From: a virus
Strand: one strand, 5' to 3'
Virus record (IMG/VR): IMGVR_UViG_3300017991_005537
Span: 1 to 34,714 of that record
DNA: 34,714 bases
A program made the position numbers and the translations under genes. Positions 1 through 13,726 of this stretch are shown here, one piece after another. The notes beneath the pieces are model-generated. The model saw only the letters and a program-made list of their open reading frames with translations. It ran no database searches and was not told the origin of the DNA. Within the stretch, counting starts at the first letter, position 1. Each line of letters opens with the position of its first letter.

Positions 1-321
1 TAGAGACTTATTATAAATATGTTGTTTGTTAATTAAAATTTGAATACTGTTAATTTTATTAATAATTTCTTCTAAATTATTTGTTTCAAAATTTTTTAGT
101 AATGATTTAACTTTAAAAAGAATTATTTCGATATTGTGTACAATTTTATCATTGTAGAAAGTAAAAATTATTGTTATTAAAGAAACAATTGTTCCAATAA
201 TCGCTGAGGTCCAAGATAAATATTCAACAACGTCTTTATTTATTTTTGAAATATATTTAATATTATCAATTACAAAATTTAACATTGTACATATATAATC
301 TTTAAATATCGTTATTCTCAT
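1..321 (-). CDS. Partial small membrane protein, unknown
   Basis: The frame is open from an ATG at 321 to the window edge, so the C-terminus is missing; at least 107 codons are visible. The ATG at 321 was chosen because it has a Shine-Dalgarno-like TAGAGG about 7 nt upstream, whereas the internal ATG at 285 has none. It overlaps the end of the preceding gene by 20 nt, as expected for translational coupling in the minus-strand operon. There is one hydrophobic segment (about residues 39-58, with WTSAIIGTIVSLITIIF) followed by a charged, probably helical stretch. No family recognised. It looks like a single-pass membrane protein of the unknown lysogeny-operon cluster. Confidence 0.55.
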   Translation of the reverse strand, partial: MRITIFKDYICTMLNFVIDNIKYISKINKDVVEYLSWTSAIIGTIVSLITIIFTFYNDKIVHNIEIILFKVKSLLKNFETNNLEEIINKINSIQILINKQHIYNKSL

Positions 322-847
322 TATATACCTCTAAAATCTTCAAAATAATTTTTAATATCTCTATTGCTTTTTCATTTTCTACATTATATAGAATGGAATA
401 TGTAATTAATCCATTTGTATAAATTTTAGTTATGGATTGATATCCATCTGCATCTAAGTTAACTGTTAATCCAAAATATTTATCAATGTCTATATGCTTT
501 ATATAATCATCATTAATTTTTTTTGAGGGAACAGGAATAGGTAGTTTATAAATTTCAATGTCTGAATCTGACTTATAGATATGATTCAATATTTTTTTAA
601 ATGGAATAAAATTTTGTACTGAAGAAGTAAAAAGAAAAAAGTATTTGTTAATTTGCACAAAACTTACAATATTAATTTTTCCATACTTAAATGATTCCGC
701 CCAATGAATTTCACCAATATTATATCCAATTTCTTTTTTGTAACAAAGTGAGTAGAATTTACCGTCTTCCTCAAATGATACATTTTTTAATGCATTAATA
801 TTTTTTTCATTAATTTTTATAACAATAGAACTACTTGAAAAAAGCAC
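302..847 (-). CDS. Unknown protein of AT-rich lysogeny operon (181 aa)
   Basis: Starts at GTG 847, preceded by AAAGGTGAGGTGA at good spacing. It encodes 181 residues with no signal peptide or obvious membrane segment. The sequence alternates short hydrophobic strands with Ile/Lys/Asn-rich stretches and ends in a helix rich in Ile and Leu (about 160-175). I do not recognise a family. It lies 30 nt downstream of the 302-aa gene and overlaps the following membrane-protein gene, so it is probably cotranscribed with both. G+C is roughly a quarter by eye, clearly lower than the phage structural genes, which suggests recent acquisition. A defence or exclusion role is only a guess from position. Confidence 0.6.
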   Translation of the reverse strand: MLFSSSSIVIKINEKNINALKNVSFEEDGKFYSLCYKKEIGYNIGEIHWAESFKYGKINIVSFVQINKYFFLFTSSVQNFIPFKKILNHIYKSDSDIEIYKLPIPVPSKKINDDYIKHIDIDKYFGLTVNLDADGYQSITKIYTNGLITYSILYNVENEKAIEILKIILKILEVYNENNDI

Positions 848-877
848 GGTAAATTCACCTCACCTTTATTTTTGAAT

Positions 878-1786
878 TTATTTTATGTTAAATTTTTCGG
901 TAAAATACTTATTGATTTTATCAACAATGTCATCTTGGCTTTCAAATAAGTCATTAAGTTCGTTTTTTACAGTAGATAGGAATCTAGTAAGTAATTGTCC
1001 TGAAGTAGTAACATTCTTTAGATTTTCTGATAATAATTCTTCTGCTTCAGATATTGTGCTTGGACTTTCTAATATGTTACATATAGCATTATAAAGGTCT
1101 ATCGCAATTTTTTGAATAAGACGTTCACTTAAATCACTATCGTCAAAAGTAATTTTTAATATACTTTTAAAGTCAATTGTAAGATTAACAATAATAGCAT
1201 TGCCCTTATTGTTCAATTTAAAAAGTGAAACACTAAATTTTGTGATTTTATCTCCACGATAAATTCTTTCAATTACATCTCCGTCTTTAAACAAATTATT
1301 TCCCCCTAGTTTAGCATTTTTTACATAAGGGGCTTTTTCATTATTAAAGGTTAAAGAAATAACACTTTGAACGTTAAAACCTATTTCAAGTAATTTTTTG
1401 TAAATTAAATGTATTGCTAGCAAAGTAAGAGGTGCAAAAGAGGTATTTCTTAAACTTTTAGCTTTATTTTGAATATAAACATTTTTATAGTAAAAGTCAT
1501 CTATATTCTCTTCAATAAATGATAGTAATTTTGAAAATAACTTATTATATCCTGATTTTGATGAAATACAGAGTTTTTCTTCTAGTAAAAAGTGTAATTG
1601 AATAATACCTGAGCTTAACTCTCTCTCTCTTTCTTGAGTAAAATTATTAATATACCAGTCGGTATAACGAAATTTAACATCAACAGTTTGTTTCACATTA
1701 TCATAGATAGGTTCTTCAATTAATTCAAAATCAAAAGATTCGAATGATTTGGTTTCATTAAAAGCATTCCGTAATTCTACCGTCAA
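878..1786 (-). CDS. Unknown protein of AT-rich lysogeny operon (302 aa)
   Basis: A 302-residue soluble-looking protein whose ATG (1786) overlaps the stop of the upstream 96-aa gene in an ATGA arrangement, indicating translational coupling. The first 60 residues look like strands, the middle (about 80-140) is helical and includes LTLLAIHLIYKKLLEIGF, and the C-terminal 80 residues are predicted helical with a coiled-coil feel. No catalytic motif could be found and no family is recognised. Since it is coupled to the 96-aa protein, the two probably work as a pair. The whole group sits in the usual accessory slot downstream of the repressor and ImmA genes of Gram-positive prophages. Confidence 0.65.
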   Translation of the reverse strand: MTVELRNAFNETKSFESFDFELIEEPIYDNVKQTVDVKFRYTDWYINNFTQERERELSSGIIQLHFLLEEKLCISSKSGYNKLFSKLLSFIEENIDDFYYKNVYIQNKAKSLRNTSFAPLTLLAIHLIYKKLLEIGFNVQSVISLTFNNEKAPYVKNAKLGGNNLFKDGDVIERIYRGDKITKFSVSLFKLNNKGNAIIVNLTIDFKSILKITFDDSDLSERLIQKIAIDLYNAICNILESPSTISEAEELLSENLKNVTTSGQLLTRFLSTVKNELNDLFESQDDIVDKINKYFTEKFNIK

Positions 1787-2073
1787 ATTATTGAATCTAA
1801 TTTTGTATCTATTGTTGCAAAAAGGTATGGTTCACCATTAGAGTATCTGTCGTTTAGAATTACGACTAAATCACTTAATATAGCTTCGCCTTCTTCTGGA
1901 TTGTCATTAATGAGTTGAATGATTTGTAATAAATATTGTTGAGGTAATAAATCTTCTGTAATATCCAAGTCATGTTGAGTTGTTAAGTACTCATCGATAG
2001 CGTTTAAACGCTTTGTAGCGTTTCTTTCACGCATTTTCTGATTAAACAAACTTTGAAATTGTTCAATTTGCAT
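1783..2073 (-). CDS. Small helical unknown protein (96 aa)
   Basis: ATG at 2073 has an excellent ribosome binding site, AGGAGGGGG, about 6 nt upstream. The 96 residues look largely helical and acidic, with no membrane segment or cysteine pair. The stop overlaps the start of the 302-aa gene by 4 nt (ATGA), which argues for a stoichiometric partner, small subunit, antitoxin-like or regulatory protein. No family recognised. It begins 11 nt after the ImmA-like gene, so it appears to be in the same transcript as the repressor operon. The strong ribosome binding site suggests it is made at a higher level than its neighbours. Confidence 0.6.
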   Translation of the reverse strand: MQIEQFQSLFNQKMRERNATKRLNAIDEYLTTQHDLDITEDLLPQQYLLQIIQLINDNPEEGEAILSDLVVILNDRYSNGEPYLFATIDTKLDSII

Positions 2074-2084
2074 TTTTCCCCCTC

Positions 2085-2669
2085 CTAATTATTTATCCAT
2101 TCAATACTCCCAACTTTACCTTTAACCTTCGCAAACCCATCAACCCGACGGTTAAATATCAGCTCTAGTCGATACCGCGCAATTTCCTCCGTGACCACGA
2201 AGTAATCCGCAATATCAGAAATCACAACCATCTGTTCAGCTGCAGCAACATAAACATCTTCAAGGAATTTAGCAGGCATCAACAAATAAGCCGACATTCG
2301 TTTTGCCTGGTTCTCGGTTTTGGCTATGAAACTATGATTTATATTCAGTTGAGAAATATGGTGTGCATATATGTGACAAAATTCTTCTGCCAGCAATAAT
2401 TTCTTTTCAATAGCATCCAAACCAGGTCGAAGGTAAATAACTCCACGACGTCCTTTTTGACCTGCAATAGAAAATGCCTTTAATCCTTCATCGACATCTT
2501 CATCCAGAAAAGGCTTTTCCAATGGCATTATTTTAATGCCGTATCTCCAGCATATTTCATACATGTCGATTTCATCTGGGTACTGATAATTAAAGTGGGA
2601 GAGGACCTTATTAGCCCGATCCTCCCAGTAATCACTTGTTGTTTTAGGTAGAAGTTGTCCTAGTTGCAT
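2085..2669 (-). CDS. ImmA/IrrE-type (DUF955) metallopeptidase-like protein
   Basis: Encodes 194 residues. The start is ATG 2669; an in-frame GTG at 2678 is only 2 nt from the AAAGG ribosome binding site and is unlikely. The segment LAEEFCHIYAHH (about 94-105) aligns with the zinc motif HExxH of the ImmA/IrrE family, and ENQAKRMSAYLLMP (about 123-136) matches the downstream conserved Glu/Ala/LLMP motif. The first zinc-ligand position is Glu instead of His (E-E-F-C-H). In ICEBs1 and related phages ImmA cleaves the neighbouring repressor to trigger induction. Here the repressor gene is two genes upstream in the same operon, separated by a lipoprotein. The changed motif leaves catalysis uncertain; regulated binding without cleavage is an alternative. 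Confidence 0.8.
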   Translation of the reverse strand: MQLGQLLPKTTSDYWEDRANKVLSHFNYQYPDEIDMYEICWRYGIKIMPLEKPFLDEDVDEGLKAFSIAGQKGRRGVIYLRPGLDAIEKKLLLAEEFCHIYAHHISQLNINHSFIAKTENQAKRMSAYLLMPAKFLEDVYVAAAEQMVVISDIADYFVVTEEIARYRLELIFNRRVDGFAKVKGKVGSIEWINN

Positions 2670-2693
2670 AAAGAACACTGCCTTTAATCTTAA

Positions 2694-3266
2694 TTATTGA
2701 TATTTTTCATTAACAATAAAATATAGGTATGAAACATTTTCTTCTTCTTTCATAATTGAAACTTCATAAAATCCTTCTATACCTTCCCATCTAGTTGTAA
2801 ATTCGTTATCATAATCTGGCATTGTTTTTTCTAAACCTACTTTTTCTAATAACTCTTCTGCAAAATTAGGAACTTTTATTTCTTCTTTAGGAGTATATGT
2901 AATTCTTTGAGCAGTCCCTTCAATAAACGTTATTTCAAATTCTCCATCATGATAAGTTGACTTAATTGCTGGAACGGTTTTATCTGTTCCTGATAAACTA
3001 AACTTAGTATTTTGTTGATTTGTGGGTTCTCCTAATATTTCGTTTACCTCTTCTGAAGTTTTATTAGCTATTTCATTAACGTTAAATATTATTTGATTTT
3101 CACTTTTCGATTTGTCTGAACTAGAGTTTTCATCACTATTATTAGTAGTCACTTCATTTTCAACATTGGGCTCCTGTTTACTAGAATCATCTGAAACATT
3201 TTCTGAACCACATGCAGATAAAAGCAAAAATGTGGCACTAGTTATTAAAAATAACATTTTTTTCAT
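2694..3266 (-). CDS. Prophage lipoprotein in lysogeny module
   Basis: A 190-residue secreted lipoprotein: MKKMLFLI signal sequence, hydrophobic core and lipobox LLSAC, with the acylated Cys at about residue 19. A low-complexity Ser/Asn/Glu linker (about 22-60) follows, then a compact domain with EILGEPT and alternating strands, reminiscent of the small extracellular domains of Bacillus lipoproteins such as DUF4309 (weak resemblance). The start is ATG 3266, 9 nt after GGGAG; an in-frame ATG at 3275 abuts that site and is too close. It lies between the repressor and the ImmA-like gene, a position where temperate phages of Gram-positives often carry superinfection-exclusion lipoproteins (for example Ltp of TP-J34). 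That role is an inference from context. Confidence 0.75.
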   Translation of the reverse strand: MKKMLFLITSATFLLLSACGSENVSDDSSKQEPNVENEVTTNNSDENSSSDKSKSENQIIFNVNEIANKTSEEVNEILGEPTNQQNTKFSLSGTDKTVPAIKSTYHDGEFEITFIEGTAQRITYTPKEEIKVPNFAEELLEKVGLEKTMPDYDNEFTTRWEGIEGFYEVSIMKEEENVSYLYFIVNEKYQ

Positions 3267-3357
3267 TAGAATCATCTCCCATTAATGTCAATCAACTCTA
3301 TTAAAGTACTAATATATATTAAATCAAGAAAATAATGGATTTATTAAGTGTAACAAA

Positions 3358-3378
3358 AGACACGATTTAAACGTGTCT
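3358..3378 (-). terminator. Intrinsic terminator after the repressor gene
   Basis: Perfect 7-bp stem AGACACG/CGTGTCT with a 7-nt AT loop, beginning 3 nt past the repressor stop codon. Read on the minus strand it is followed by TTTTGTTA. It should end or attenuate repressor transcripts, so the lipoprotein and downstream genes would be read at a lower level or from another promoter. Confidence 0.7.
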
Positions 3379-3380
3379 AA

Positions 3381-3815
3381 TTAATCTTCGATGTCTCCAA
3401 ATCCTTCTTCATGATCATCGCTTTCAAGATCTTTCTTTACAAATTCCCACATCTTAATAAGTTGTTTGATCTTTTTCTCAGGAGCATTTGCAAGATCATG
3501 GAATAGAATAGGATGCTTTTTAATTTCTTGCAGAACTTTTAATTCTTCAGAGGTTAATAATAATTCAGATTGTTCATCATATTTATTATGTTCGTTACTT
3601 ACTCGGTATCTCGCTTTTTCTTCTTTTTTTTCTAAACCCAGTAAATAATCAGTTGTAACATTGTAATACGATGCTATTTTTTTTAGTGTTTCTGTGTCTG
3701 GTTCACTTCGTCCATTTTCGTAATGAGAATATCTCGCACGCGATACACCGATATACTTGGCAACTTCCTCTTGTGTCCTTTTACCCCTTAACTTTTTTAA
3801 CCTCTCACCTAACAT
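3381..3815 (-). CDS. CI-like phage repressor (XRE HTH)
   Basis: A 144-residue protein with an N-terminal HTH_3/XRE domain (about residues 4-60: [30 protein letters not shown] and the following [11 protein letters not shown]). A charged C-terminal helical part ends in an acidic tail. There is no LexA-type Ser-Lys peptidase domain, matching the short repressors paired with ImmA-type proteins. ATG 3815 has AGAGGAGA 7 nt upstream. It is divergent from the Cro-like gene at 3985 across an intergenic region holding four copies of a 15-bp palindrome. Its expected role is to maintain lysogeny by occupying those operators and shutting off the rightward early promoter. Confidence 0.9.
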
Positions 3816-3848
3816 AATTTATCTCCTCTTAAATAAATTTCTAATTAA

Positions 3849-3877
3849 ATTATAGATACAAATTGTATCTAATAAAA
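3849..3877 (-). promoter_or_regulatory. Leftward promoter of the repressor operon
   Basis: On the minus strand a perfect -10 TATAAT (3854-3849) lies 17 nt from a weak -35 TTTTAT (3877-3872). The 15-bp operator at 3855-3869 fills the spacer, so repressor or Cro binding there should block this promoter. The start site would fall about 25 nt before the repressor ATG. Confidence 0.6.
3855..3869. promoter_or_regulatory. Operator copy 1
   Basis: GATACAAATTGTATC, extended by flanking A and T into a 17-bp palindrome with one central base unpaired. It is the most symmetrical copy of the repeat and sits between the -10 and -35 of the leftward promoter. Confidence 0.8.
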
Positions 3878-3882
3878 CGAAT

Positions 3883-3897
3883 GATAAAAAATGTATC
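3883..3897. promoter_or_regulatory. Operator copy 2 (degenerate)
   Basis: GATAAAAAATGTATC, one mismatch in the left half-site compared with the consensus GATACAAAANGTATC. Its centre is 28 bp from copy 1 and 29 bp from copy 3, which allows side-by-side binding on nearly the same helix face (about 2.7 turns). Confidence 0.65.
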
Positions 3898-3906
3898 AAA
3901 AAAATA

Positions 3907-3935
3907 TTGACGATACAAAACGTATCATCTATAAT
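3907..3935 (+). promoter_or_regulatory. Rightward early promoter
   Basis: Near-consensus sigma-A promoter: -35 TTGACG (3907-3912), 17-bp spacer, -10 TATAAT (3930-3935). Operator copy 3 fills the spacer. It would drive the Cro-like gene and the whole early operon. Confidence 0.85.
3912..3926. promoter_or_regulatory. Operator copy 3
   Basis: GATACAAAACGTATC, lying between the -35 and -10 of the rightward promoter and starting at the last base of the -35. Occupancy should exclude RNA polymerase directly. Confidence 0.8.
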
Positions 3936-3949
3936 AAAAACACAAAGTT

Positions 3950-3964
3950 GATACAAAATGTATC
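3950..3964. promoter_or_regulatory. Operator copy 4
   Basis: GATACAAAATGTATC, just downstream of the expected rightward start site and 20 nt before the Cro-like gene. It is identical to copy 5 inside that gene. Confidence 0.8.
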
Positions 3965-3984
3965 ATGATGTGAGGTGATTACTT

Positions 3985-4230
3985 TTGAGAGAGCGACTAA
4001 TAAAAGAAAGACAATCAAAAGGTTATACACAAAAACAGATCGCTGAAATTCTAGGTATTTCAGAAGTTTTTGTTAGAAAAATTGAAAAAGGTTTAAGGAA
4101 TCCAGGGAGAGAAACATTGTTGAAATTTGAAATATTATTTAATATTCCTGCATCTGAGCTATTCCCAGATCTTTTTCATATATCTTTTGATACAAAATGT
4201 ATCAAGCAAAAAGTAAAAGAAGTCAGTTGA
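3985..4230 (+). CDS. Cro-like XRE regulator
   Basis: An 81-residue protein starting at TTG 3985, with GAGGTGAT 5 nt upstream. HTH_3 domain at about residues 3-58: KERQSKGYTQKQIAEILGIS, then VRKIEKGLRNPGRETLLK and FNIPASELFPDLF. It is the first gene of the rightward early operon and divergent from the repressor, the classic position of Cro. The operator repeat GATACAAAATGTATC occurs within its own coding sequence at 4189-4203, coding FDTKCIK, so the C-terminus is constrained by the DNA site. It probably represses the leftward promoter and tunes its own expression. Confidence 0.88.
   Translation: MRERLIKERQSKGYTQKQIAEILGISEVFVRKIEKGLRNPGRETLLKFEILFNIPASELFPDLFHISFDTKCIKQKVKEVS
4189..4203. promoter_or_regulatory. 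Operator copy 5 inside the Cro-like gene
   Basis: Exact copy of operator 4 (GATACAAAATGTATC), 239 bp further downstream and inside coding sequence. It could act as a roadblock or as a looping partner of the promoter-proximal array. Confidence 0.75.
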
Positions 4231-8624: not shown

Positions 8625-9551
8625 ATGCCAGACAGCTATCCATTCCCAACTTACTCGGGGCTATTGGAACCAAAACATTATAAACGAATTGGATCAGCGA
8701 TATGGCTATTTCTCTGGTGCATTAGCTCCACGACGAAAGAAGTTGAGAGAGATGGAGTAGTCTGGGGCATCGTATTAGGGAATAAGCCATTAAAGCTCAA
8801 AGAATTAGCTGAAACATTTGGGGTTAATGAAAAAACCGTAAGACGTTGGTTAGATGTACTAGAAGAGAGTGAATACATCAGGGTCACAAGAGTTGCTTAC
8901 GGTTTGATTATCTCAGTTAAAAACTCGAAAAAGTTCCAAAACAAAACGGACAAAAATGTCCAATCTGATGAAAGAGAATGGACAAAAATGTCCAATCCAG
9001 AACGGACAGATATGTCCACTCTCTCGGACAAAAATGACCACTCTAATAAAGATATTACAGTAGATATTACAAATAACATATATGCTGCTGCTATAAACAC
9101 GCGCGAAGAAAAAACAACTGGCGGGGTGCCTACAACCGAAAGTGTCCAGCTTGCTGATGCCGATCAGAGTAAGGGACAAATACCAGGTAATTTTTCTATC
9201 GACGCTTATGAACGAATCAAAGAAGCTTACATGAGGCTAGCAGCAATACGTGGATTTGACATCAACGTAAAAGACAGGACAAGCATTTTAGAGTTGCTTA
9301 AATACGATATTGACACTGATAAAGTGATTCAATGGCTTGAAGAGTGCTTTAGAGACTATAAACCTAAACACAAGTTTGACAAGATTAATAGCTTTGCCTA
9401 TTGCTTGCCGAAGATTTTAGATAAACATGTTTCTGAACAGGAGGGGAGGAAAGGTGGCCAGAACCATCGAGGAAATCCTAGAAAACCTAAAAATGAGGTC
9501 GAATCAATCATTGGCAACAGAGTCGGCAGAATCCGAAGAAAAACAATATGA
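8625..9551 (+). CDS. yqaL: DnaD-like phage replication initiator (YqaL-type)
   Basis: 308 residues. The N-terminal winged helix (about 10-105) includes LKELAETFGVNEKTVRRWLDVLEESEYI. A variable polar linker (about 110-185) is encoded by DNA carrying four origin-like iterons. A DnaD/YqaL-type helical domain spans about 190-270 (AYERIKEAYMRLAAIRG, then IDTDKVIQWLEECFRDY and INSFAYCLPKILDKH). Such proteins bind the phage origin and recruit the helicase loader encoded next. The last 33 codons overlap the loader gene in another frame and encode a basic low-complexity tail (RKGGQNHRGNPRKPK). Start ATG 8625 has GTAGGTGAT upstream. Confidence 0.87.
   Translation: MPDSYPFPTYSGLLEPKHYKRIGSAIWLFLWCISSTTKEVERDGVVWGIVLGNKPLKLKELAETFGVNEKTVRRWLDVLEESEYIRVTRVAYGLIISVKNSKKFQNKTDKNVQSDEREWTKMSNPERTDMSTLSDKNDHSNKDITVDITNNIYAAAINTREEKTTGGVPTTESVQLADADQSKGQIPGNFSIDAYERIKEAYMRLAAIRGFDINVKDRTSILELLKYDIDTDKVIQWLEECFRDYKPKHKFDKINSFAYCLPKILDKHVSEQEGRKGGQNHRGNPRKPKNEVESIIGNRVGRIRRKTI
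8948..9090. other. Probable phage replication origin: four iterons plus AT-rich segment
   Basis: Four copies of a 14-bp palindromic element GGACAAAAATGTCC occur at 8948-8961, 8980-8993, 9004-9017 (GGACAGATATGTCC) and 9026-9039 (GGACAAAAATGACC), spaced 32, 24 and 22 bp start to start. An AT-rich tract with repeated GATATTACA (9050-9083) follows, a plausible unwinding element. The array lies in the linker-coding part of the initiator gene, between its DNA-binding and DnaD-like domains. Phage lambda O and several lactococcal and Bacillus phages have origins in the same relative place. Function is inferred. Confidence 0.75.
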
Positions 9552-10254
9552 TTGTCCTAAGTGCAAGGATCAACTTGGCTATATTAAAGGCGAGTGGCCG
9601 AACGAAGTATGGGTTAGATGTTCTTGTATCGAGTGGAGAAAAGCTCAAAAGCTTATGAAATCGAGTGAAATTACTGAAGAGTTTAAACGTCTTGGTTTCA
9701 AAAACTTCTGTACGGACGGAAAGCCACAAGTGATCATTGATGCTTACGAATGTGCGTTGGAATATTACCAAGACTTTGAGAATGTGAGGAATGAACGGAG
9801 AAATTCTATTGCGCTTTTAGGTCAACCTGGTGCTGGAAAAACTCACTTGCTTACAGCCATTGCAAACAACCTTATTCAACGGAAACATGTTCCAGTGATG
9901 TATTTCCCTTATGTTGAAGGGTTCAATGACTTGAAAGACGACTTTGACAAACTCGAAGAAAAGCAAGAACGAATGAAAAAAGTGGATGTTCTCTTTATTG
10001 ACGATCTATTCAAGCCTACTGGCCGTGATAGAAAGCCAAGAGCAACCGAATGGCAGGTTGAGCAAATGTACGCTGTAATCAACCACCGATATCTTACCCA
10101 TCAACCAATTATGATTTCATCAGAGCTAACGGTTGACGAGTTGATTGACGTGGACGAGGCGCTTGGAACAAGAGTATACGAAATGTGCCAAGATTTCTGT
10201 GTGGTGATTAAGGGTGACAGAAAAATCTTAAATTATAGATTGGTAGGTGCTTAG
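9454..10254 (+). CDS. yqaM: DnaC-type AAA+ helicase loader (YqaM-type)
   Basis: 266 residues from GTG 9454, chosen because GGAGGGGAGG lies 5 nt upstream. An N-terminal Cys cluster (CPKC at about 30-33 and CSC at about 52-54) resembles a small zinc module. The AAA+ core has Walker A GQPGAGKTH (about 122-130), Walker B VDVLFIDDL (about 176-184), sensor-1-like MISSELT and the arginine region LGTRVYEMC. DnaC/DnaI-type loaders deliver the host replicative helicase to the phage origin. The first 98 nt overlap the DnaD-like gene in a different frame. The neighbouring initiator and iterons support the role. Confidence 0.92.
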   Translation: MARTIEEILENLKMRSNQSLATESAESEEKQYDCPKCKDQLGYIKGEWPNEVWVRCSCIEWRKAQKLMKSSEITEEFKRLGFKNFCTDGKPQVIIDAYECALEYYQDFENVRNERRNSIALLGQPGAGKTHLLTAIANNLIQRKHVPVMYFPYVEGFNDLKDDFDKLEEKQERMKKVDVLFIDDLFKPTGRDRKPRATEWQVEQMYAVINHRYLTHQPIMISSELTVDELIDVDEALGTRVYEMCQDFCVVIKGDRKILNYRLVGA

Positions 10255-10256
10255 AC

Positions 10257-10433
10257 ATGTGTAACCTTTGCAATGGTACTCATACCATTCACGAGTTCGG
10301 CTCTTACTTCATCAAGTATCATCCATGCCCGAACTGCGGACCAGTTAATGAACGAAAGCTTGAAGAAAAGTACAAGAGAATGAGAGAGAAAATAGCAGCT
10401 GCAAAAGCGAAACTTGAAGCAGAAAGCGCGTAG
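10257..10433 (+). CDS. Small zinc-ribbon-like protein
   Basis: 58 residues starting at ATG 10257, 2 nt after the helicase-loader stop. Two Cys pairs, CNLC (residues 2-5) and CPNC (24-27), suggest a one-zinc ribbon, followed by a basic helical tail with KLEEKYKRMREKIAAAKAKL. A ribosome binding site, TTGGTAGGTG, lies inside the end of the preceding gene. Small proteins of this type commonly follow dnaC-like genes in Bacillaceae prophages; their role is not known to me. Confidence 0.7.
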   Translation: MCNLCNGTHTIHEFGSYFIKYHPCPNCGPVNERKLEEKYKRMREKIAAAKAKLEAESA

Positions 10434-10469
10434 TACATACAACATGAAATATTACATTGCGTAGAGGAA

Positions 10470-10651
10470 ATGAATCTTGACTGGAAGCCTCATGAAGTTG
10501 TTTTGGTTGAAGAATTATGGAAGAGAGGCTTCCAATCGAAGAAATAGCAAAGAAAACAAAACGACCGGTACAAGAAGTATTCATCTTAATTTTTGATAGA
10601 GCAGAGCAAGGACACATTGAGCCGAGAAAAGGAGGTATTTTCGGTGCCTAG
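10470..10651 (+). pseudogene. Frameshifted small HTH-like phage gene
   Basis: The first frame (ATG 10470) reads MNLDWKPHEVVLVEELWKRGF and then stops at 10546-10548 after a few aberrant codons. The continuing family-like sequence LPIEEIAKKTKRPVQEVF..GHIEPRKGGIFGA is found in another frame ending at TAG 10649-10651. Joining them gives a plausible intact protein of about 60 residues with an EIAKKTKR helix-turn-helix pattern, requiring one missing base near 10530. A 44-codon ORF from ATG 10517 could still be translated. The lesion could be real decay or a single-base sequence error. Confidence 0.6.
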
Positions 10652-10812
10652 TATTTTTGATAAGCGATTGACTATAGACGGCTATCTTAAGAGTAAAGCA
10701 GAAGGCTGGACGGACCAAGAGATTTCTACAGACTTTTGATATCAAGAGAAACATTACGTGTTTGAAAAAAGAAAAAATTGAAATGGATAAACTATTAAAA
10801 AATTTAAGATAA
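10644..10812 (+). pseudogene. Broken second HTH-like phage gene
   Basis: GTG 10644 has GGAGGTATTTTC upstream and opens VPSIFDKRLTIDGYLKSKAE..DQEISTDF, ending prematurely at TGA 10737-10739. Immediately after, ISRETLRV is readable in a second frame, and LKKEKIEMDKLLKNLR in yet another frame to TAA 10810-10812. Together these make an HTH protein (WTDQEIS..F.ISRETL) with at least two frame-disrupting changes. It overlaps the end of the previous broken gene by 8 nt, as intact neighbours would. Two adjacent damaged regulators suggest the locus is under relaxed selection, or that the sequence contains errors here. Confidence 0.6.
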
Positions 10813-10831
10813 GAAATAAGGAGTGTAGAAT

Positions 10832-11038
10832 TTGAAACTTGCAGAAGCTGTTGGAAAACGAAGAAGTTATTTAATTGGACATCTTACGTTTGATGGCTTT
10901 GACCCTGAGGAACTTAATTCGCTAACTTTAACCGAGTTAGAGAAATTGAATATCAAAATAGGTAGAAAAGCTAGACCAATTTCTAAGGAGGGAAGAGGAA
11001 GGGAAAACGTGGCAAACCTTAAATTAAAACGAGATTAA
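10832..11038 (+). CDS. Small basic phage protein, unknown
   Basis: 68 residues from TTG 10832, supported by AAGGAGTGTAG 6-10 nt upstream. It begins KLAEAVGKRRSYLIGHL, contains LNSLTLTELEKLNIKIG and ends in a basic tail rich in Arg/Lys. No domain recognised; the first half could be a short helix-turn-helix-like DNA-binding module. It lies between the two broken HTH genes and the ArpU-like late regulator, in the same direction, so it is likely the last of the small early/middle genes. Confidence 0.6.
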   Translation: MKLAEAVGKRRSYLIGHLTFDGFDPEELNSLTLTELEKLNIKIGRKARPISKEGRGRENVANLKLKRD

Positions 11039-11148
11039 GCAGACGTTATGTTTAAGTACGATTGAGAGTTTAAAAACGTTAAAAAGTGAATTAAGCGGGT
11101 ATACCGTCGGTATGTAAGTTATCAAGATGAAATATGAGGGGTGGTTGT

Positions 11149-11571
11149 ATGAAAACATTCCATGAAATAGAGATCGCATTAAAAAATTACAGTTGGATGG
11201 TAAGAGAGATTAAAAGATTAGAAGAAGAACTTAAAGCCCCAAATCAACCAATAACAGGAAAATATGGCGTTGAATTATTTATGTCTAAAGGTAATAAAAA
11301 AGCTGATCCTGTATGTGTAGAAGTACAGTCCAGGGAACGAAAGCGAAAAATATTGGACAAGTTTAAAAGAAAGGTTCAATTTATTGATACTCATTTATCT
11401 TTTATAGAAGATGATAGAGAATTAGCTATATTAAATTGTTTACTAGATGGAATGAGTATTGTTGCTATATCGCAACAAATGGGATTTAGCGAAAGAAAGG
11501 TTTATTGTATAAAAGATGCTATTGTAAGAAAAATGTTGAAAAATGCAGGAAATGCTGAAATTGCAGAGTAA
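11149..11571 (+). CDS. ArpU/RinA-like late transcription regulator
   Basis: 140 residues from ATG 11149, preceded by GAGGGGTGG; the in-frame ATG at 11134 is upstream of that site and is not preferred. The N-terminus is a coiled helix (VREIKRLEEELKAP), the middle has RERKRKILDKFKRKVQFID, and the C-terminal 45 residues form a sigma-70 region-4-like HTH (ELAILNCLLDGMSIVAISQQMGFSE then RKVYCIKDAIVRKM). This layout is typical of ArpU/RinA/LtfA-type activators, which are the last genes of the early operon and turn on the late packaging-lysis operon downstream. The exact target promoter was not identified. Confidence 0.8.
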   Translation: MKTFHEIEIALKNYSWMVREIKRLEEELKAPNQPITGKYGVELFMSKGNKKADPVCVEVQSRERKRKILDKFKRKVQFIDTHLSFIEDDRELAILNCLLDGMSIVAISQQMGFSERKVYCIKDAIVRKMLKNAGNAEIAE

Positions 11572-12134
11572 TTGAGTCTATATACTTCATTTGATTATCA
11601 TTGAATTGTAAAGTTTTAATTAATATTTAAACTCACAGGCAGTATAAATCTAATTTAAAGGAGCTGAATGATCTCTTACTTTTATGTACCAAGACTATCA
11701 TTGATCCGTTAATAGTTTTTTATGAGAGGTGTGTAAAACCAAATTAGAATCTGTGTTCTTTTCAAATTTATTGATTGACCCATTCCCCTTATAAGCACTG
11801 TCAAAATTGAGGTGTTTTTTGGGTTGACAAACATGGACGAAATGAAGAAGAAAAGAAACTCAATTGTATCAAATACCTAATGGGCAATTTGGATACATAA
11901 AAAGTGTTATGTTCATATAGTTCAGTAAATTGTGTGAAAGAGAAATATAATGATTTAGAAACTTATAAGCCTATTGTAATGAGATGAATTACAGATACTT
12001 AAAATGAAGAACAAACAAGAAAATGTAATAATTGTGGTCATCTCCTAGAATTACAAAAGCTGCTATTGGGATTACTTTATTTCTGTAATATTTTTAGCAA
12101 CAGTATTAAAGAATTAATGGGAGGAATTGTATAT
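11572..12134. other. AT-rich gene-poor stretch with possible coding remnants
   Basis: No intact gene was found. A 14-codon ORF at 11668 has an SD (AAAGGAG) but looks insignificant. From about 11950 to 12060 one frame reads like a decayed protein: YNDLETYKPIVMR, then stops, then a Cys-x-x-Cys stretch RKCNNCGHLLELQK, running into the frame of the beta-helix gene. A TTGACA at 11824-11829 has no matching -10. The stretch forms the left flank of a cargo-like segment. Confidence 0.5.
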
Positions 12135-13145
12135 ATGACAAAAGTTTCAATTTTAGAATTTGGTGCAAGCACTAGTAATACAGATAACTATACTCAAATT
12201 CAAGATGCAATTAACTATGTTTATAGTCAAGGCGGTGGAGATGTACATATACCTAATGGAAGATTTAAATATTCAAATACATTATCAGTAAAAGATTGTG
12301 TAAGAATTATTGGTGAGGGTGCAGATAAAAACGCTTCACAGTTAGAATATACAGGAAGCGGATTTGCGATGAAAACAGCAGGAAGCCATTTAAGACAAAG
12401 ATTTAAAGATTTTTATCTAACATTAAATTATAATCAACATGGAATTAAAATAGGTGATGTTGTAGCGAATTTGAATCGTGATTTAGGTATTCTACCTAGA
12501 CAAATTGATTTAGATAATGTTGTTATAAGTGGTCTTGGAATTGGTCAAGTTGGAATTAAGACATATAACGCTTCCCATATCACTATGAAGAAGGTGCGTA
12601 GTGCATATGGTAATGGAGGTTTAGGATTAGTTATTACATGTGATGGATATAATTCTGGAGTTTTTGTGGCAGAAGAATGTAGTTTTGGACGTCATGGACA
12701 AACACAAGTAGGGGTTGAGTTTCTTGGAGGTACTGGAGGATTAGATGGATATGTTTTTAATGGATGTTATTTTGGAGGAGCTGTACCTATTAGATTTAGG
12801 AATGGAAATACTAGTAACTTAGTATTTAATGCACCTCATATTGAAGTCACTGATAGTAGTGTAGAACATTATGCAGTAGATATCGAATCAGTAAAAGGAT
12901 TGGTATTTAATGGAGGATTAATTGGTGGATTTGGATCCAATACTGTAGTAGGAATTTTATTTCGGAAGGCATGCGAAGGGGTAAACATCAACAGTCTTAC
13001 GGTTAATGAATTTGCAGGAACAGTATTTAAAAACTCTTCTGGGGTATCACCAAAACATAGCATTCTTTATAATGCAGTTTCGACTGGCTCTACATCACCT
13101 GCAACCCAATTTAACGGAAACTTCAATGAAGCAATAATTGTGTAG
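12135..13145 (+). CDS. Orphan pectate-lyase-like beta-helix protein (tailspike-like)
   Basis: 336 residues from ATG 12135, with GGGAGGAA about 8 nt upstream; the longer frame from 12066 runs into non-coding sequence and was rejected. The N-terminus (VSILEFGASTSNTDNYTQIQDAINY..GGGDVHIPNGRFKYSNTL..VRIIGEGAD) is the signature of the pectate lyase 3 / GH28-related family. The rest shows the regular short Asn/Gly/Val strands of a right-handed beta-helix. Such folds occur in phage tailspikes and depolymerases that bind or cut surface polysaccharide. No signal peptide or virion-anchoring head domain is seen. It is far from the tail genes, between the late regulator and terminase, a typical moron position. 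Very low G+C. Activity and virion association unknown. Confidence 0.8.
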   Translation: MTKVSILEFGASTSNTDNYTQIQDAINYVYSQGGGDVHIPNGRFKYSNTLSVKDCVRIIGEGADKNASQLEYTGSGFAMKTAGSHLRQRFKDFYLTLNYNQHGIKIGDVVANLNRDLGILPRQIDLDNVVISGLGIGQVGIKTYNASHITMKKVRSAYGNGGLGLVITCDGYNSGVFVAEECSFGRHGQTQVGVEFLGGTGGLDGYVFNGCYFGGAVPIRFRNGNTSNLVFNAPHIEVTDSSVEHYAVDIESVKGLVFNGGLIGGFGSNTVVGILFRKACEGVNINSLTVNEFAGTVFKNSSGVSPKHSILYNAVSTGSTSPATQFNGNFNEAIIV

Positions 13146-13600
13146 AAAGGAGATAGTTATAGAGTTTTTATTTTAAATTAATAAAATAGTAGATATCTCT
13201 TTAAGTAGAAAAAAATATATGAGTTAAATAAAAAATGAATTTTTGGAAAGCCTTGAGAGTAAAATAATTGAACAAGTTAGGGTGGAGAAATTTGCTAAAT
13301 AATCATTAGTCCGATTGAAAATATAAGAACAGTATATTTATAGTACAAAGGTTACTATAAAGTTTTATATATGGAGATAATGCCAAGTATCTAGGGTGAA
13401 CCGGTTATAGGGAAGCCTAAAAAGAAATAAAGAAAGGGATAACTACTATTTTCATAGAATATACAATAATGAAATGAGATGAAATATAATGAAAATAATC
13501 AAACCAAGTGGGTGATAAGAAAGCACTCTCTAATGAGAGTGCTTTTTATTTTGGAATCCATACAACAATGCTGTCGTGTAATGGTAGATGGAGTGATGAA
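13146..13600. other. Gene-poor stretch before the packaging genes
   Basis: AT-rich DNA with no supportable gene up to the small ORF at 13601. A somewhat more G+C-rich patch (13386-13425, containing GGTGAACCGGTTATAGGGAAGCC) and the terminator at 13521 are the only features seen. The late promoter controlled by the ArpU-like protein should lie here or just after the terminator, but no consensus site could be assigned. Confidence 0.5.
13521..13552 (+). terminator. Strong intrinsic terminator before the late operon
   Basis: Perfect 10-bp stem AAGCACTCTC/GAGAGTGCTT with a TAAT loop (13531-13534), followed by TTTATTTT. It should stop transcripts coming from the early region or the beta-helix gene and so separate them from the packaging genes. 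Confidence 0.88.
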
Positions 13601-13726
13601 ATGGAAATCAAAGCTGTTATCACATTCATCCGTGAATACGACGGATTTTATTGTTATTGGGTACAGTTTGGAGATACAGGGAGAATGGTTCAATTGGGGG
13701 AAGGTAGAAGATATAGAGGAAATTAA
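13601..13726 (+). CDS. Small phage protein upstream of terminase, unknown
   Basis: 41 residues from ATG 13601 with GGAG 7 nt upstream. The sequence (IKAVITFIREYDGFYCYWVQ, then FGDTGRMVQLGEGRRYRGN) looks like a compact beta-type phage protein; the overlapping frame 13479-13736 gives an unnatural product and crosses the terminator, so it is rejected. It is the first gene after the 13521 terminator and 35 nt before the small terminase gene. No function recognised. Confidence 0.5.
   Translation: MEIKAVITFIREYDGFYCYWVQFGDTGRMVQLGEGRRYRGN

Follow-up and report, generated by a model that had tools for sequence, protein, structure and literature searches.

What is encoded by the AT-rich DNA beyond the repressor and ImmA genes of this temperate phage, and could it defend the cell that carries the prophage? 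The window, by which we mean the whole 34,714-base stretch analysed (IMGVR_UViG_3300017991_005537), reads as a temperate siphophage of Bacillaceae type. The ten proteins scanned included a recognisable RecE-like exonuclease, DnaD-like loader, terminase, portal, tape measure and endolysin. At its left end, on the minus strand, a Cro/CI-type repressor (3381..3815; Pfam HTH_3, 1.4e-18) is followed by a lipoprotein-like gene of 193 aa (2694-3275; weak signal-peptide-type matches only), an ImmA/IrrE-like metallopeptidase (2085..2678; Pfam Peptidase_M78, 2.8e-12; 81% identity to the ImmA of phage AP45) and, 11 nt past the end of ImmA, the first frame of an operon here called A-B-C. The original prediction had placed a repressor and an ImmA-like gene upstream of the operon, which stands with the correction that the lipoprotein-like gene separates the two; phage AP45 has no annotated gene in its place. 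A terminator-like stem follows the repressor (3378-3358), and co-transcription of the operon with the repressor is therefore uncertain. Scanning positions 1-4000 for promoters was uninformative (26 found versus 26.3 expected).

The operon resembles acquired DNA. G+C content is 0.216 over the first kb of the window and 0.268 over its second, below the 0.359 of the window as a whole, bearing out the predicted difference from the phage genes, and it is AT-rich at every intact occurrence. Specifically, the four intact operons found in relatives have G+C contents of 0.279, 0.268, 0.278 and 0.316, as compared with 0.391, 0.368 and 0.407 for the rest of three of these loci and 0.392 for the whole L002 locus. 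The site after ImmA had been described as a position for lysogen-expressed cargo, and Aeribacillus phage AP45 supports this description. Between its ImmA and integrase lies other cargo (L030 6684-9195): a 469-aa SNase-type (SNase/Excalibur) protein, a DUF6941 protein and a 211-aa protein. Since AP45 carries different genes there, we regard the ImmA-integrase stretch as a cargo slot. The AP45 genes are possibly another lysogen-expressed system.

The four minus-strand frames predicted between 1 and 2073 are all present (96, 302, 181 and 107 aa, the last open at the window edge), as are a 4-nt overlap, a 30-nt gap and a 20-nt overlap between them, the first overlap being TTGA (1783..1786) instead of ATGA. 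We rejected their reading as four separate genes in favor of three. The 96-aa frame (1783..2073) and the 302-aa frame (878..1786, TTG start) are most likely one gene, A, split by a one-base frame difference, because A is a single continuous ORF in all four intact relatives (401, 408, 402 and 425 aa) and two shared anchors flanking the junction are 92 nt apart in the window versus 93 nt in the continuous ORF of Jeotgalibacillus. The first frame, a helical domain, has 72-73% identity to the N-terminus of Jeotgalibacillus A and the second has 66-67% identity to the rest of that protein. Hence, the separate small soluble protein, once proposed as a sensor, turned out to be the N-terminal part of A. 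A Shine-Dalgarno-like GGAGGGGG precedes the 96-aa frame at about 2085-2078, but no such stretch was found for the 302-aa frame, unlike for the 96-aa, 181-aa and membrane frames. The split may reflect genuine damage, an error in assembly or a coupled arrangement of the two halves and, with A divided, the window copy of the operon may be damaged.

Protein B (302..847, minus strand; 181 aa, GTG start) has 47% identity to Jeotgalibacillus B and a Shine-Dalgarno-like AGGTGAGGTG at about 865-856. The frame of C overlaps that of B by 20 nt and is cut by the window start, leaving 107 N-terminal residues (1..321, minus strand) with 41% identity to a 344-aa relative. Hydropathy places one hydrophobic helix at residues 35-53 of the window C and three in the L002 copy (near 32-50, 110-128 and 136-154) ahead of a soluble tail. 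By hydropathy alone, three of the four complete C copies have three such helices (L002, L008 and L010), and the four overlapping calls in the L016 copy were read as three. The predicted membrane component is thus supported. Compared with Jeotgalibacillus, each of the four frames shows conservation at the protein level, and these are therefore not chance ORFs. NG86 estimates of dN/dS were 0.24/5.1 and 0.24/2.0 for the 96-aa and 302-aa parts of A, 0.45/1.6 for B and 0.48/1.8 for C, of which only the direction (dN well below dS) is readable given that dS was saturated.

Searching the 302-aa protein against genomes of 84,980 species returned a single close relative at 66% identity, from Jeotgalibacillus sp. 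ET6. Its locus (L002) holds an intact operon with a spacing style like that of the window and proteins A, B and C of 401, 179 and 344 aa. Searches with the Jeotgalibacillus protein and with profiles found three further intact operons: L008 in genome G028 (408, 183 and 352 aa), L010 in G377 (402, 206 and 350 aa) and L016 in G238 (425, 169 and 338 aa). The last order-wide search matched 9 of 397 genomes, of which we judged seven real (four intact and three with only a broken A, namely L009, L013 and L029) and two chance, and a phylum sample matched 2 of 398 genomes, one of them by chance. Dropped as chance matches were G735, with metabolic genes and seven stops, and G195 and G086, with an S9-peptidase-like ORF. 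No relative was found with tblastn of the 302-aa frame against phages and plasmids, of L010 A against plasmids, or of L008 A against plasmids and phages, and scans of viral_contigs confirmed none. The operon is rare and patchy: of 397 genomes in one order, four carry it intact.

Wherever the operon is intact, the order A-B-C is fixed (4/4), with A of 401-425 aa, B of 169-206 aa and C of 338-352 aa. Jeotgalibacillus A is only 19-23% identical to the A proteins of the distant members, yet the order is kept, so linkage has outlasted sequence. The operon also occurs outside prophages. These are three real genes in a linked set, as had been anticipated, and none of the findings named as counting against the original prediction (scattered genes, ordinary host genes or a known unrelated function) was encountered.

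The neighbors of the operon are frequently defence genes. At L016, the operon is directly divergent from Gabija (PADLOC GajA 1.1e-205, GajB 5.9e-122). At L010, PADLOC identified a type I restriction subunit (7.6e-303) that is followed by a 745-aa AAA protein, and beyond the operon lie an McrB-like protein (MrcB_N) and a DUF2357/PDDEXK_7 protein that form an McrBC-like pair. L008 carries a GmrSD-type Orf5 (9.5e-191) with a uracil-DNA-glycosylase-like protein and adjoins phage-type replication genes. The broken A of L013 is near a cytosine methylase (MTase_II, 4.5e-98), the A fragment of L029 adjoins an Eco57I-type (IIG) enzyme, and the broken A of L009 adjoins an integrase. At L002, the operon has riboflavin genes (recognised by eye) on one side and, on the other, the remnant of a prophage that encodes scaffold, portal and minor head proteins. 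The flanks of L002 and L009 (2/7 loci) contain no named defence gene.

Four of seven loci had a strong PADLOC neighbor as compared with 1 of 20 control stretches (Fisher p = 0.009), in keeping with the defence-type setting proposed originally. Counting the HsdR of L010, which runs past the locus edge and hence falls outside the rule behind the 4/7 count, gave five of seven loci (p = 0.0014). By our reading of the scan, at least six of 39 flank ORFs matched PADLOC at E ≤ 1e-60 versus 1 of 129 control ORFs. PADLOC named GajA, GajB, Orf5 and one MTase_II among these flank members, and for L029 we inferred the other two, an IIG enzyme and another MTase_II; a flank match to SspA, probably a housekeeping desulfurase, was not counted. 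The test used ORFs of at least 200 aa, with at most seven per locus, and for the control, 155 candidate ORFs, of which 129 were used, came from 20 stretches at hand-picked fixed positions in six of the same genomes, with two ORFs (both from L050) left out. Defence-gene neighbors alone fall short of proving a defence function.

Other genes at these loci deserve mention in their own right. The cytosine methylase of L013 stands in a row (9122-13615) with a 767-aa GHKL-type ATPase-like protein and a 318-aa response-regulator-like protein, the latter two recognised by eye; this row is possibly an unnamed defence set, and the 767-aa protein has no PADLOC match. Nor does the 745-aa protein of L010 (2772-5009, plus strand), which is of AAA_16 type and separates the operon from the type I restriction subunit. 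The GmrSD-type protein of L008 (10386-12476, minus strand) has a C-terminal DUF5655 domain.

As in the original reading, the operon was not recognised as a member of any family: A, B and C had no confident match in Pfam, NCBIfam, PADLOC or PHROGs. With PADLOC-DB 2.0.0, the 96-aa frame matched only JetC3 (E = 0.0069) and the other three frames matched nothing at E ≤ 1. Weak Pfam matches (DUF2840, Mce4_CUP1 and Q4D059-like) were discarded as far below cut-offs, and Kiwa was rejected because no PADLOC profile matched. Library profile searches likewise matched A, B and C to no toxin or antitoxin family and to none of the Gabija, GmrSD, McrBC or restriction-modification profiles. Neither RexA (PF15969) nor RexB (PF15968) matched any of the three at E ≤ 10. 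The lambda proteins themselves matched these families at 1e-97 (RexA) and 8.5e-92 (RexB). Alignment with hhalign gave probabilities of 0.3 for A and 1.0 for B against four RexA rows and 0.1 for C against RexB. DUF4747 (PF15931), named as the Rex-like domain family, matched 0 of 139 genomes but also 0 of 14 control genomes, making this search uninformative. Profiles of A, B and C against PDB sequences returned nothing below E = 0.06, and A and B have no sequence similarity to each other.

The fold model of L002 A was poor (mean pLDDT 47.2, pTM 0.30), and its best ten Foldseek rows were all CENP-N/Chl4 (E from 1.5e-4 to 0.029, five at E ≤ 1e-3), the names of chains within the kinetochore complexes being our reading of the chain letters. 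VIA aligned the A model with CENP-N (Z 8.3, rmsd 10.4), KA1 (8.2), RdgC (8.1 over 112 residues, rmsd 3.5), Iml3 (6.5) and lambda RexA (5.2 over 98 residues, rmsd 3.7), along with triphosphate tunnel enzymes. Residues 79-204 of this model also match E. coli RnlA (VIA Z 5.8-6.4), alongside RdgC and CENP-N. RnlA is a toxin with anti-phage action. The model of Jeotgalibacillus B, made from two sequences, was of moderate quality (pLDDT 73.4, pTM 0.69) and displayed two successive sheet-plus-helix units. Its best VIA row was TBP (Z 6.7 over 75 residues). At or near the top were also RdgC, aligned along 163 of its 179 residues at a Z of 6.2 that common matches reach as well, and Chl4 (5.7), with CENP-N, Chl4 and CENP-L rows at 4.7-5.7 and PII-type and ribosomal proteins close behind. 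No row for B reached a Z of 8, and no Foldseek match in PDB or BFVD reached E ≤ 1e-3. RexA (8twq) was absent from the best 50 rows for B and from the listed Foldseek rows for A, appearing only in the VIA rows for A.

According to Adams et al. 2024 (PMC11077077), structural relatives of RexA include RdgC, IML3 and CHL4, and the Dali score between RexA and RdgC is itself only 4.4. The models weakly and independently suggest that A and B fall in this group of DNA-binding folds (RexA/RdgC/CENP-N-CENP-L). Taken singly, neither match is firm, and we consider it the most telling observation that two proteins dissimilar in sequence appear to point to one set of folds.

RexAB was the first abortive system tied to phage defence. 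Like the window operon, the RexAB systems of lambda, P. putida (RexABpp), Sbash (gp30/31) and CarolAnn (gp44/43) are lysogeny-module cargo beside a repressor and combine soluble protein with a membrane protein. The low-confidence model of A also aligns with lambda RexA, and the models of A and B with RdgC, the structural relative of RexA. In contrast, A-B-C has three genes encoding two different soluble proteins, A carries an extra helical N-terminal domain, and C, which has about 340-350 aa, three hydrophobic helices and then a long soluble tail, is far larger than the four-helix, 144-aa RexB. The operon is found amid restriction genes as well, where no phage repressor was recognised next to it: the window copy has one, whereas none was recognised at L008, L010 or L016. 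We would thus describe the operon as Rex-like in design and not as a RexAB member by sequence, given its three genes, a C that is not the four-helix RexB, and no profile match to RexA or RexB. The P. putida paper (PMC12894663) counts only five described Rex-like systems, and no three-gene version appeared among the titles and abstract openings returned by searches of open-licence PubMed Central papers.

Two other comparisons come from the folds. RdgC, the recombination-associated DNA ring of E. coli and Pseudomonas, has a fold arrangement in common with the A and B models, although no sequence match of A or B to PDB chains was found and RdgC is a chromosomal homodimer that is not known to have a membrane partner (PMC11077077). 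The CENP-N/CENP-L (yeast Chl4/Iml3) kinetochore heterodimer also consists of two different soluble subunits and supplies the best Foldseek rows for A. However, this pair is eukaryotic and had no sequence match in PDB profile searches, and its likeness is one of fold models, which need not reflect common descent. Gabija, GmrSD, McrBC and restriction-modification are close neighbors of the operon, but separate systems.

Our best explanation, which we hold with somewhat less than even confidence, is that A-B-C is a three-gene anti-phage operon carried as lysogeny-module cargo and acting through a Rex-like abortive mechanism. That the operon functions in defence we consider likely, and the Rex-like mechanism on its own is a more tentative proposal. 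Under this explanation, A and B would pair as a soluble sensor whose domains resemble those of RexA, RdgC and CENP-N, clasping DNA or DNA-protein intermediates formed during phage infection. The engaged pair would bind and switch on C, the three-helix membrane protein, which would disturb the membrane and stop growth before phage maturation, protecting the prophage and the population. The sensing of phage DNA by A and B and the activation of C are proposed by analogy with the Rex systems of lambda and P. putida, and A-B pairing and membrane damage are likewise inferences. It is conceivable, though improbable, that A-B is the equivalent, in prokaryotes, of the heterodimer with which CENP-N/CENP-L (Chl4/Iml3) clasps DNA, here coupled to a membrane effector, which would make it a heterodimeric, three-component Rex-like branch spread via restriction islands and prophages.

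The strongest competitor, a serious possibility that we nevertheless rate below a Rex-like operon, concerns only the window copy, which could be a decaying passenger inactivated by the frame change in A while intact copies elsewhere work. The gene is split here and whole in every intact relative, its second half has no ribosome site, and three other loci (L009, L013 and L029) retain only a broken A. However, both halves have a dN far lower than dS, the TTGA stop/start overlap can support re-initiation, and the virus contig could equally well contain an assembly error of one base. The operon might instead be a toxin-antitoxin-like addiction module, in which C is a membrane toxin held by A and B that stabilises the carrier prophages and islands, with phage defence secondary. 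Coupled genes ending in a membrane protein, AT-richness and residence in mobile DNA fit such a module, but three sizeable proteins are unlike the classic pair and no toxin or antitoxin family was matched, and we find it unlikely.

Less likely still is a prophage-specific set for lysogeny control or superinfection exclusion that acts on the phage switch and not in general defence. Its appeal lies in the placement of the operon within the lysogeny arm, 11 nt from the end of ImmA, and in lambda RexA, which also tunes the CI-Cro switch (PMC11077077). The intact copies at L010 and L016, situated amid restriction and Gabija genes with no phage repressor among the listed ORFs, argue against it. Finally, ordinary host genes could have been swept in by a wrong prophage boundary, since the record stops partway through C and the scanned proteins, which were part of the window's ORFs, included no integrase. 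The close spacing to ImmA, the AP45 integrase lying beyond the equivalent slot, and the rarity and patchiness of the operon in its order make this very improbable.

Taken together, A-B-C is a real, rare and unnamed three-gene operon that is probably anti-phage, for which a Rex-like mechanism is plausible. Whether or not the Rex link holds, it is a conserved set in strong defence-gene company with no name in the four libraries. If our explanation is true, two proteins would share the role of sensor in a system that is independent of the lysogeny switch and occurs next to Gabija and restriction systems, and sensing, activation and membrane attack would become genetically separable. If the resemblance to CENP-N/CENP-L holds, it would bear on the origin of that kinetochore pair, and a true counterpart would mean that phage defence, too, has employed the kinetochore fold pair, with the two subunits together sensing DNA.
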